NCBI RefSeq assembly: GCF_000981225.1
Contig: NZ_LAJC01000043.1
Coordinates: 1 to 48,203, forward strand
DNA: 48,203 bases
Reading direction: 5' to 3'
DNA from: Allosalinactinospora lopnorensis
GTDB taxonomy: Bacteria > Actinomycetota > Actinomycetes > Streptosporangiales > Streptosporangiaceae
Shown here: positions 44,827-47,260 of the stretch, in pieces
How the letters are laid out: the number at the start of each line of letters is the position of its first letter
How positions within the stretch are numbered: position 1 is the stretch's first letter
Program-made: the position numbers and the translations under genes
The notes under the pieces: model-generated
Seen by the model: the letters and a program-made list of their open reading frames with translations, nothing else
Told to the model about the DNA's origin: nothing
The model's database searches: none

Positions 44827-44953
44827 GCTCGCTCCATTCCGGCGTGTTCGAAAAAGTTCGATGCTGTTCTCGGACGCATGCAGTGTGGTCGGGGATCTAC
44901 TTTAGAGGTGATGCGCGGCACCGCGCGCAAGGGGTGTCCCCGTATCACCACCT

Positions 44954-44980: not shown

Positions 44981-45640
44981 GTGAGCCGTAACTACGCCGG
45001 TCTCAGCACCGAACGCATCATCGTCGAAGCCCTGCGCATCATCGACGGCCAGGGCCTGCGCCGACTGACCATGCGCCGCCTCGGAGACGCCCTCGAAGTC
45101 GAGGCGATGGCCATCTACCACCACTTTCCGCTGGGCAAGGAGCAGCTCTTCGACGCGATCGTTGAGTACATCACCGACGTCTCCCCCAGCGGGGCCTCCC
45201 AGGATGACGCCGAGGAGGACGGAGACCCCGCCGCGGCCCCTCCCGACGAGGAGCGCCCCTGGGACGAACGGCTGCGGGCCTGGGCCCGCGACTACCGGAC
45301 GGCGCTGCTGGACCATTCCGGCGCGCTGAGCCTGCTCATCAACCGCAGACCGGACACGGCCGCCGCCATGCGCTCCCTGGAGATGCACTACGCCGCGTTC
45401 GCCGAGGCGGGGTTGACCGGCCGCGCCATTGTCGAGGCCGCGGCCGCGCTCGACTCCTATGTGACCGGCGCCGTCATCCACCAGGTGCGCGGTGAGGGAC
45501 TGGCCAGCCCGCACCCGGCGGCGATGGACGGACGCTACCCGCACGTCGCTCGGCTGACCGAGGAGGAGACCACCCCCGAACAGCGCTTCAGCGCGGGCCT
45601 GGAGACCCTGCTGGCAGCCCTGGCACGGAACTCCGGTTAG
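44981..45640 (+). CDS. TetR family transcriptional regulator (TetR_C class)
   Basis: A 219-residue repressor. The DNA-binding domain is STERIIVEALRIIDGQGLRR followed by LTMRRLGDALEVEAMAIYHH and FPLGKEQLFDAI, with the YHHF motif typical of the tetracycline-repressor class. The C-terminal ligand domain has the TetR_C pattern (ARDYRTALLDHSGALSLLI, ALDSYVTGAVIHQ). An acidic insertion (about residues 70-90) is unusual. It starts at a GTG that may be leaderless, behind a TTAC/GTAA inverted repeat. It probably controls itself and the divergent unknown gene; the DUF1326 operon downstream is another possibility. Confidence 0.83.
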   Translation: MSRNYAGLSTERIIVEALRIIDGQGLRRLTMRRLGDALEVEAMAIYHHFPLGKEQLFDAIVEYITDVSPSGASQDDAEEDGDPAAAPPDEERPWDERLRAWARDYRTALLDHSGALSLLINRRPDTAAAMRSLEMHYAAFAEAGLTGRAIVEAAAALDSYVTGAVIHQVRGEGLASPHPAAMDGRYPHVARLTEEETTPEQRFSAGLETLLAALARNSG

Positions 45641-45812: not shown

Positions 45813-46457
45813 ATGAACCAGGTTCCGCAGTGGCGCCTACAGGGCGACTGGTTCGACGTCTGCAAGTGCGACATCCCGTGCCCGTGCTATTTCGCGCAAG
45901 CGCCGACCTACGGCTCCTGCGACGGGACGCTCGTGTGGCACATCCGTGAGGGCCGGTACGGAGACGTCGTCCTCGACGGTCTGAACGTCCTGGCTCTGGG
46001 TGCGTTCACCGGAAATATCTGGGCCGGCGGCACCAAGGCCGCGATGGGGGTGTTCTTCGACGAACGGGCCGATGAGCGCCAACGTGCAGCGCTCCAGGCG
46101 ATCTTCACCGGCCAGGCAGGAGGCTGGCCCAAGGGATTCGCCGAGCTCATCGGGGAGATGCGGGGCATGGAGTTCGCCCCCATCGAGTTCGACGTCGACG
46201 ACGATCTGGAGTCGTGGAGCGCGCGCATCCCCGGGCGCGTCGAGGCCCGCGCCGAGGCCCTGGCGGGGCCGACGAGCCTGCCCGGACGGCGCGTGCAGGT
46301 GCACAACCCCGCGGGAAGCGAGGTCGGTCCGGGAACCGTGGCCACCCAGGGGGTGTCGGTCGCCGACCGGGCCGAGGGGTTCGCGTTCCAATGGGACCGG
46401 TCCGGCCAGTCGAGCAAGCACATGCGGTTCGACTGGAGCGGCCCTGACGAGCCGTGA
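45813..46457 (+). CDS. DUF1326 domain-containing protein
   Basis: A 214-residue soluble protein of the uncharacterised DUF1326 family. Its N-terminus WRLQGDWFDVCKCDIPCPCY carries a conserved cysteine cluster, continued by FAQAPTYGSCDGTLVW. RYGDVVLDGLNVLALGAFTG and the AAMGVFFDE segment are also typical. The cysteine spacing suggests metal or redox chemistry, but no activity is known to me. The ATG follows GGAGGGGAGGAACC. Its stop overlaps the start of the DUF2182 membrane protein by 4 nt (GTGA), so the two are co-translated and presumably work together. Confidence 0.87.
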   Translation: MNQVPQWRLQGDWFDVCKCDIPCPCYFAQAPTYGSCDGTLVWHIREGRYGDVVLDGLNVLALGAFTGNIWAGGTKAAMGVFFDERADERQRAALQAIFTGQAGGWPKGFAELIGEMRGMEFAPIEFDVDDDLESWSARIPGRVEARAEALAGPTSLPGRRVQVHNPAGSEVGPGTVATQGVSVADRAEGFAFQWDRSGQSSKHMRFDWSGPDEP

Positions 46458-47260
46458 CCGGGCATACGACCCGCCGCGTGCGGCCGGAGTCGACCTGGGA
46501 GGCGGCACTGGTCGCGGGCCTGCTCGGGCTGGCGGCCCTGGCATGGGTGACCACCGGCCGGCTCGCCGATCCCCACATGCGCCTCGGACTGCTGACCGGG
46601 GTCGGCGAGATGATGCCCATGCACGCCGGGGGCGGCCCCGCGCCGGCGGCTCTGGGACTGTTCCTGGCCACCTGGGTCATCATGATGGCGGCGATGATGT
46701 TCCCGTCGGTCCTCCCGGTCGTCGTCACCTATGACCGCTGGGTCGCCCGGACCGACCGCCCCCGCGCGGCCACGGTCCTGTTCGTCAGCGGGTACCTACT
46801 CGTCTGGTCCGCCGCCGGGTTGCTCGCCTATACCGTCATCGTCCACCTGGTTCCGCTGCTGCCCTCGGGCGACACCGCCGTGAGGTTGGGGGCGGCGCTG
46901 CTCGTCCTGACGGGGCTGTACCAGTTCACGCCGCTGAAGCGGGCGTGTCTGCGCCAATGCCGGTCCCCGCTGGCATTCATCGCCGAGCACGCGGCGCGGC
47001 TCAGGTCAGGCGGACTGGCGGGGGTGCGGACCGGTGCCGTACACGGCGGCTACTGCCTGGGCTGCTGCTGGGCGCTGATGGTCGTCCTGGTACTTCTCGG
47101 TGTGATGAGCCTGGCCTGGATGGCACTGGTCGCGGGCGTGATCCTGCTGGAGAAGACACTGCCGCACGGCTGGCCGGTCAGTGGGATCGTCGGCGGTGCG
47201 CTCATGGCGGCCGGCGTCCTCCTGCTGATCGGAGCCCCGACGCTTCCGACGCCGGCCTGA
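46454..47260 (+). CDS. DUF2182 integral membrane protein, predicted metal-binding
   Basis: A 268-residue inner-membrane protein with about six to seven helices. Met- and Cys-rich motifs line several of them: GEMMPMHAGG, WVIMMAAMMFPSVLPVV, YQFTPLKRACLRQCRSP and HGGYCLGCCWALMVVL. These are the hallmarks of DUF2182 proteins, annotated as predicted metal-binding membrane proteins. The GTG start overlaps the DUF1326 stop. Thioether- and thiol-rich membrane helices suggest copper or another soft metal, but this is inference. The gene ends 13 bp from the convergent ABC ATPase. Confidence 0.87.
   Translation: MTGHTTRRVRPESTWEAALVAGLLGLAALAWVTTGRLADPHMRLGLLTGVGEMMPMHAGGGPAPAALGLFLATWVIMMAAMMFPSVLPVVVTYDRWVARTDRPRAATVLFVSGYLLVWSAAGLLAYTVIVHLVPLLPSGDTAVRLGAALLVLTGLYQFTPLKRACLRQCRSPLAFIAEHAARLRSGGLAGVRTGAVHGGYCLGCCWALMVVLVLLGVMSLAWMALVAGVILLEKTLPHGWPVSGIVGGALMAAGVLLLIGAPTLPTPA

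Follow-up and report, generated by a model that had tools for sequence, protein, structure and literature searches.

The DUF1326-PpoB2 gene pair of Allosalinactinospora lopnorensis, a candidate copper-handling module

Gene pair and family assignment

The DNA analysed here is a stretch of 48,203 nucleotides (nt) of Allosalinactinospora lopnorensis (contig NZ_LAJC01000043.1, positions 1 to 48,203), referred to below as the window. Two overlapping genes were studied, the first encoding a DUF1326 protein and the second a membrane protein of the PpoB2 (DUF2182) family (Table 1). A role of this pair in copper handling is proposed, with PpoB2 as the putative membrane carrier and DUF1326 as its possible recipient.

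Family assignment was done with Pfam. The DUF1326 protein matched PF07040 with an E-value of 1.1e-60 (205.3 bits, cut-off 25), and the PpoB2 protein matched PF09948 with an E-value of 2.1e-57 (194.5 bits, cut-off 28.7) over profile positions 1-187 of 188. A DUF1326-DUF2182 pair with a 4-nt overlap had been proposed in the original prediction, together with the motifs CKCDIPCPC (DUF1326) and CLRQC, GYCLGCC, MMPMH and MMAAMM (PpoB2); the open reading frames (ORFs), their translations and the Pfam matches confirmed all of this. Both families had also been described as lacking an assigned activity. This holds for PF07040, for which no function is given in Pfam, but not for PF09948, which now bears the Pfam name PpoB2, 'Copper chaperone'. 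The available part of PMC2855505 states that PpoB2 of Marinomonas mediterranea, encoded in one operon with the tyrosinase PpoB1, is involved in the specific transfer of copper to PpoB1; in this review by the founders' group, PpoB2 is presented as the first member of COG5486 to be given a role. This paper, found with COG5486, was the only one obtained for the family identifiers. No paper turned up for DUF1326, DUF2182, PF07040, PF09948 or COG5588 in a search outside which most subscription papers lay. The 'PpoB2' of PMC7907043 was rejected as a member of this family, being an unrelated ferredoxin according to the available part of that source. NCBIfam gave no match for either protein, and sequence searches of the PDB gave nothing for either beyond one weak chain at chance level.

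Table 1. Features of the DUF1326-PpoB2 locus in the window
Feature	Position	Strand	Remark
DUF1326 gene, 214 aa	45813..46457	+	ATG start; no evident signal peptide by eye
PpoB2 (DUF2182) gene, 268 aa	46454..47260	+	GTG start; about 7 membrane helices, N terminus predicted inside
GTGA, PpoB2 start codon overlapping DUF1326 stop codon by 4 nt	46454..46457	+	sequence
DUF1326 five-cysteine site C17-x-C19-x3-C23-x-C25-x10-C36, codons	45861..45920	+	invariant in 29 aligned proteins
PpoB2 Met/His-rich outer loop, codons 38-63, holding MMPMH	46565..46642	+	positive-inside counts
PpoB2 M77-x3-M81-M82, second membrane helix	46682..46699	+	M81 in 77/85 rows
PpoB2 C165-x3-C169, long basic loop predicted cytosolic	46946..46960	+	residue conservation
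PpoB2 H197-x3-C201-x-G203-C204-C205, membrane helix	47042..47068	+	C204 tracks the DUF1326 partner
Putative purine-rich Shine-Dalgarno-like stretch just 5' of DUF1326 start codon	45798..45809	+	sequence reading only
TetR-family regulator gene	44981-45640	same as pair	172 nt upstream of pair
OppF-like ATPase gene facing pair	47274 onward	minus

Co-occurrence and gene order

The two families were counted in two phylum samples. In the phylum of the window (198 genomes), 35 genomes had both, 7 had PpoB2 without DUF1326, 5 had DUF1326 without PpoB2 and 151 had neither; in the phylum to which a Bradyrhizobium genome belongs, taken as the second sample (249 genomes), the corresponding numbers were 28, 6, 0 and 215. 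Independent occurrence had been set beforehand as the outcome that would speak against a functional pairing, and joint occurrence was found. DUF1326 was present in 40 of 198 and 28 of 249 genomes, and patchily in the family of the window (6 of the 61 same-family genomes listed, its own included, counted by eye); it was also found on plasmids of haloarchaea and of a cyanobacterium. Within the first phylum, DUF1326 lay no more than 3 kb from 41 of the 53 PpoB2 matches, 39 times on the same strand and in both orders. In the second, 37 of 43 PpoB2 matches were adjacent to DUF1326, with DUF1326 first in 21 and PpoB2 first in 16 cases. A class sample (394 genomes), which shares genomes with the first phylum sample, contained PpoB2 in 34 of its 38 DUF1326 genomes; just 36 of its 65 PpoB2 matches had a DUF1326 neighbour (counted by eye from coordinates), because other branches of PpoB2 have other partners.

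Of the plasmid records examined, 14 had both genes together, with the 4-nt overlap in 4, gaps of 4-112 nt in 9 and divergent orientation in 1. A fixed stoichiometry, which had been read from the overlap, is therefore not borne out. The reversed order and the few opposite-strand pairs point to a working link without translational coupling. None of 347 PpoB2 and 331 DUF1326 ORFs (duplicates included) matched both models, so that no fusion was detected. DUF1326 and PpoB2 form a real functional module.

Partners of PpoB2 outside the DUF1326 pair

The two phylum samples and the class sample yielded 46 PpoB2 matches that had no DUF1326 gene beside them, and 36 of these were scored. The other ten (G183, G135 twice, G073, G152, G069, G170, G219, G400 and G609) were omitted as fragments, contig-end copies or matches below cut-off. 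Stretches of 5-20 kb were searched at E 1e-15 with probes for CsoR, copper ATPase (Cu-ATPase), multicopper oxidase, CopC, tyrosinase, SBP56 and CoxL. A copper-protein gene was present within 8 kb at 24 of the 36 loci: tyrosinase at 13 (directly adjacent), Cu-ATPase at 5, form-I CoxL at 5 (2.8-5.6 kb away) and SBP56 at 1. At 80 control PpoB2 loci (about 4-21 kb long; DUF1326 detected in 76) the number was 2 within 8 kb and none within 300 nt. Locus L383 was scored as negative since its PpoB2 was missed by the model, despite a tyrosinase gene at a distance of about 270 nt; L404-L406 cover previously counted loci at greater length, and CoxL-like matches without AYxCSFR (L395, L400, L406) were not counted. 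Judged from gene neighbourhood, DUF1326 apparently fills the place that is otherwise held by a copper protein.

Tyrosinase genes (PF00264 plus DUF7868) were directly followed by 4 of the 9 full-length PpoB2 genes without DUF1326 neighbour in the two phylum samples, and nine further tyrosinase neighbours came from the class sample. Four of the tyrosinases were inspected by eye and had no obvious signal peptide, so that loading would be cytosolic. The Cu-ATPase genes lay beside 5 of 7 PpoB2 loci of a clade with genus code g4, which from its likeness to a plasmid island of M. avium is probably Mycobacterium. At L397, L398, L399, L402 and L403, a form-I CoxL with AYxCSFR, the mark of form-I molybdenum-copper carbon monoxide dehydrogenase (Mo-Cu CO dehydrogenase), was encoded within 6 kb of a PpoB2 relative. 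Three of these five CoxL proteins were checked, all three scoring above the NCBIfam cut-off, and the PpoB2 genes of this group that were checked adjoin XdhC/CoxI-like and MobA-like genes.

The genome of the window itself contains a second arrangement (L175:11594-13871, G000:C5), in which a PpoB2 paralogue comes immediately after an SBP56 methanethiol oxidase gene; this paralogue has Ser-Ser where Cys204-Cys205 would stand. A Cu-ATPase-like part is encoded in an open frame whose end lies 2.3 kb ahead of this PpoB2 frame. Copper dependence of SBP56 methanethiol oxidase is reported in the available parts of PMC5739008 and PMC10362175. Tyrosinase gave no match in the own genome, in a search that rang in no control.

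Cys204 and the type of partner

The partner of PpoB2 was predicted by a single residue. Cys204 was present in 106 of 106 DUF1326-adjacent PpoB2 proteins versus 2 of 34 others (tyrosinase-adjacent 0/13, g4 clade 0/6, SBP56-adjacent 0/1, remaining 2/14), identical proteins being counted once. The PpoB2 of the M. avium plasmid copper island reads CLGSC and has no Cys204. Of the full-length proteins without a DUF1326 neighbour in the two phylum samples, 9 of 9 lacked one or more of the five PpoB2 cysteines, versus 3 of 77 proteins with such a neighbour; C165 was found in 3 of 9 and 74 of 77 rows, respectively. The 80 control loci were excluded from all residue counts because they had been chosen by a pattern containing Cys204. 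Fragments, contig ends, rows below cut-off (L210, L213, L221, L222, L311, L012/L214) and duplicates were dropped. The Cys204 tree also omits L388 (split frame) and L384 (contig end); L384 keeps Cys204, and a DUF1326 gene lies near the end of another contig of the same genome. On this tree, 7 changes were counted for Cys204 and 7 for the partner.

Conserved residues and predicted topology of PpoB2

In an alignment of 27 rows, M77, M81, M82, K162, C169, C201, E233 and K234 were invariant and C165, H197, C204 and C205 nearly so. When more rows were scored, M77, M82 and C169 were kept without exception (85 of 85) and C201 with one exception (85 of 86), whatever the partner. Lys plus Arg averaged 3.0, 4.9 and 2.0 in the inner loops and 0.9, 0.6 and 0.0 in the outer loops; from these positive charges, the loop with C165-x3-C169 (4.9) and E233/K234 are predicted to lie inside and the Met/His-rich loop outside. 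Loop 38-63 contained a mean of 3.05 Met plus His in 16.8 residues, with 0.90 Lys plus Arg (84 sequences); MMPMH itself was not conserved as a motif among PpoB2 sequences. An AlphaFold2 model of PpoB2 reached a predicted local distance difference test (pLDDT) score of 83.9. The fold search returned no Foldseek match at E 0.001 and, with a best VIA Z of 4.9, no clear relative. In one open frame of 955 aa (L307:3258-6122), residues 760-946 at the C-terminal end match PpoB2, and Pfam gave no other match.

Cysteine site and predicted fold of DUF1326

The five-cysteine pattern of DUF1326 was recognised in this analysis and does not derive from Pfam. Fragments L319, L325 and L326 and rows shorter than 90 aa were left out of the residue counts. 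All five cysteines were present in 81 of 82 PpoB2-adjacent rows; in the remaining row the ORF is truncated where its locus ends. Non-adjacent rows retained them in 10 of 14 cases. Of the four that did not, G103 and G124 have as their sole PpoB2 a tyrosinase-adjacent one, and G167 and G186 have no PpoB2 match. DUF1326 relatives minus the cysteine motif were also seen at L215, L216, L217 and L218, in genomes without a Cys204-type PpoB2.

The AlphaFold2 model of DUF1326 (pLDDT 93.6, predicted template-modelling score 0.90) was compared with known structures. The top 12 VIA-align rows were all acetoacetate-decarboxylase-like chains, such as 4zbo, 3bh2 and MppR (4jmc), which we take to belong to this group, with Z 10.1-11.3 and root-mean-square deviations of 3.9-4.2 over 163-169 residues; the next row had Z 8.6. 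An acetoacetate-decarboxylase-like fold is predicted accordingly for DUF1326. The acetoacetate decarboxylase superfamily has a conserved catalytic lysine. In 29 DUF1326 proteins, whose positions were not superposed on acetoacetate decarboxylase, the 12 columns that are invariant or close to it include no lysine.

Neighbouring genes

A universal third gene was considered and rejected: Pfam scans of the nearest genes at 100 loci and all-against-all clustering gave mixed neighbours. The scan comprised 101/102 right-hand or middle genes and 94 left-hand genes taken from a simple ORF picker. Recurrent sets were mostly bound to one clade (Mesorhizobium) or consisted of FAD_binding_4 oxidoreductases. 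The latter, of the berberine-bridge type or with an iron-sulfur part, stood beside the pair in 5 of 101 right-hand or middle positions (L178:8741-10210, L191:9185-10597, L192:8343-9773 by clustering only, L099:10805-13753 and L181:8404-11349), a weak enrichment. SBP56 was rejected as a general client of the pair, since it was nearby at 1 of 80 loci; in the first phylum it was adjoined only by the PpoB2 paralogue of the own genome. On plasmid pHG1 of Cupriavidus necator, a gene for a small GDCCVxC-domain (seleno)protein directly follows a DUF1326-PpoB2 pair (L063:8625-8852).

A link between the TetR gene upstream of the pair and the pair itself is unproven, and a search of the other fetched loci at E 1e-12 gave no relative of the TetR protein. 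Between positions 44900 and 47400, scans for promoters and terminators found nothing.

Proposed copper transfer and alternatives

We propose that the pair is a copper-handling module in which PpoB2 would carry Cu(I) inward and DUF1326 would receive it, and we hold this with about as much belief as doubt. The proposal starts from the observed gene pairing, cysteine conservation, partner swap and match of residue and partner; the folds and the topology of both proteins are predicted, and copper as the metal, the inward direction and DUF1326 as recipient are what we infer. PpoB2 would act as an inner-membrane Cu(I) carrier that catches copper at its outer Met/His-rich loop. The metal might then cross the membrane along M77/M81/M82 and C201/C204/C205, reach C165-x3-C169 at the cytosolic face and be handed to the protein encoded next door. 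In other branches the recipient would be a copper enzyme, namely tyrosinase, SBP56 methanethiol oxidase or Mo-Cu CO dehydrogenase. Here it would be the cytosolic DUF1326 protein, with Cu(I) held on the five-thiolate site, and the extra C204, and mostly C165, of PpoB2 may be adapted to a thiol-to-thiol handover to DUF1326. DUF1326 might serve as carrier, buffer or copper enzyme. Transfer of a soft metal or a redox step had been suggested in the original prediction. Copper is the best-supported cargo, which strengthens the metal part of that idea and narrows it to copper.

Several observations weigh against this proposal. Copper genes had been expected to be enriched around DUF1326 pairs, but no enrichment was seen within 8 kb at E 1e-15 (2 of 80 loci, as above); at E 1e-6, CsoR was near 1 of the 80 loci, Cu-ATPase near the same one and CopC near 1. 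The copper-gene probes matched at none of 14 solo DUF1326 genome loci, and among 18 solo loci examined the two with copper genes nearby were plasmid ones. A five-cysteine DUF1326 without a Cys204-type PpoB2 was found in five g4 genomes (G074, G627, G697, G713, G822), and G040 has one as a fragment at the end of a contig; PpoB2 is therefore not always needed. Conversely, Cys204 is kept in the dropped fragments or contig-end copies of G183, G135 (two) and G152, assemblies in which no DUF1326 was found. The Fisher values for both phylum co-occurrence counts and for the first residue counts ignore kinship. Independent contrasts on supported branches of the Cys204 tree numbered 4, of which a mean of 3.7 agreed (p 0.125 by sign test), after 2 supported contrasts in an earlier tree of 86 rows, and relatedness could explain part of the match between Cys204 and partner. 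Foldseek placed DUF1326 against the acetoacetate decarboxylase chains with a best E-value of 1.2e-5 and TM-scores of only about 0.4. Finally, a sulfur link is seen in a dimethylsulfoniopropionate (DMSP) demethylase (DmdA) gene that follows PpoB2-DUF1326 at four loci, L193:6495-9056 and L225:6372-9068 in the own phylum (both above the cut-off of the NCBIfam equivalog) and L199:5202-7757 and L064:5224-9339 on roseobacter plasmids. It stands directly after the pair in Antarctobacter; in Marinovum one gene lies between, and SBP56 is in the same cluster.

Solo DUF1326 genes close to the subtype of the window (G-D/E-WFDVCSCKLPCPC), with intact cysteines and no adjacent PpoB2, were also noted at L185 and L390-L394 of g4.

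Copper might flow in the opposite direction, with DUF1326 scavenging or buffering Cu(I) in the cytosol and passing it to PpoB2, to be exported or stored as part of copper tolerance. Genes near either family are consistent with this: PpoB2 lies between CsoR, Cu-ATPase and multicopper oxidase genes in the M. avium plasmid island, DUF1326 of M. gallinarum lies between CopC and a CsoR-like regulator, a four-helix copper-binding protein is encoded 4 kb from DUF1326 in Chroococcidiopsis, the Microvirga pair has a CusA/CzcA efflux gene at a distance of about 4 kb, and Cu-ATPase is found beside most of the g4 loci. However, within the fetched stretches the M. avium PpoB2 has no DUF1326 and the M. gallinarum and Chroococcidiopsis DUF1326 genes have no PpoB2, and Cu-ATPase was near just 1 of 80 loci of the DUF1326 type. 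Supply also fits better with PpoB2 beside biosynthetic copper enzymes, and export or storage is considered unlikely.

DMSP demethylase occurs in two own-phylum genomes and on two roseobacter plasmids; SBP56 belongs to the Marinovum cluster, and in one Geodermatophilus it lies no more than 2 kb from the pair. These neighbours would agree with sulfur or thiol redox chemistry without a metal, in which the cysteines are catalytic or exchange disulfides and PpoB2 is a membrane protein that acts in redox or on sulfur compounds. SBP56 is itself the enzyme whose copper dependence is reported in the accessible portions of PMC5739008 and PMC10362175, and copper, not sulfur, is common to the other PpoB2 partners, which makes this explanation improbable. 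A change of cargo to zinc or another soft metal, when the DUF1326-paired branch gained C165/C204 or the others lost them, appears quite improbable: a site of four or five thiolates suits Zn(II), Cd(II) and Cu(I) alike, and the cysteine difference falls exactly in this branch, but the M77, M82, C169 and C201 core is unchanged and common to the copper-enzyme branches. That DUF1326 belongs to the acetoacetate decarboxylase superfamily as an enzyme with structural cysteines, its substrate being transported by PpoB2, is very improbable despite a fold match that covers most of the chain at Z 10-11, given the lack of a lysine in the 12 conserved columns, the invariance of all five cysteines, the Met/Cys pattern of PpoB2 and the copper neighbours of its other branches.

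Returning to inward copper transfer, it links DUF1326 with a family whose role in copper transfer is reported, and offers a concrete ligand, site and partner. A wider version is advanced tentatively, with more doubt than belief. PpoB2 might be a membrane factor that generally loads copper into cytosolic copper proteins, its client slot being open to tyrosinase, SBP56, Mo-Cu CO dehydrogenase or DUF1326 in exchange for one another, and Cys204 might be the client switch; DUF1326 might be a new copper-thiolate family, possibly an enzyme, on an acetoacetate-decarboxylase-like scaffold. PpoB2 would then be a candidate copper supplier of form-I CO dehydrogenase as well as of bacterial tyrosinases and methanethiol oxidase.

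Comparison with known systems

Eukaryotic copper importers of the CTR1 type have an MxxxM motif in a membrane helix and a Met-rich outer segment. PpoB2 resembles them in both respects and differs in having about 7 helices; the fold search, the only comparison made, gave no clear match for PpoB2. DUF1326 resembles the acetoacetate decarboxylase superfamily in predicted fold, with 8-12% identity, and has five conserved cysteines instead of the conserved lysine. According to the available part of PMC5739008, SCO1/SenC, a presumed copper-maturation protein, is encoded beside SBP56 in the mtoX operon. The PpoB2 paralogue of the own genome likewise stands beside SBP56 and is a different kind of protein.

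The closest known system is PpoB2 of Marinomonas mediterranea, which belongs to the same family (PF09948, COG5486) as PpoB2 of the window; in both cases the gene shares an operon with that of the presumed recipient. The tyrosinase-adjacent members scored here, among which the Marinomonas founder was not included, have the M77/M82/C169/C201 core in common with PpoB2 of the window, whereas Cys204 is absent from 13 of 13. The partner is a tyrosinase in Marinomonas and DUF1326, with no adjacent tyrosinase, in the window.
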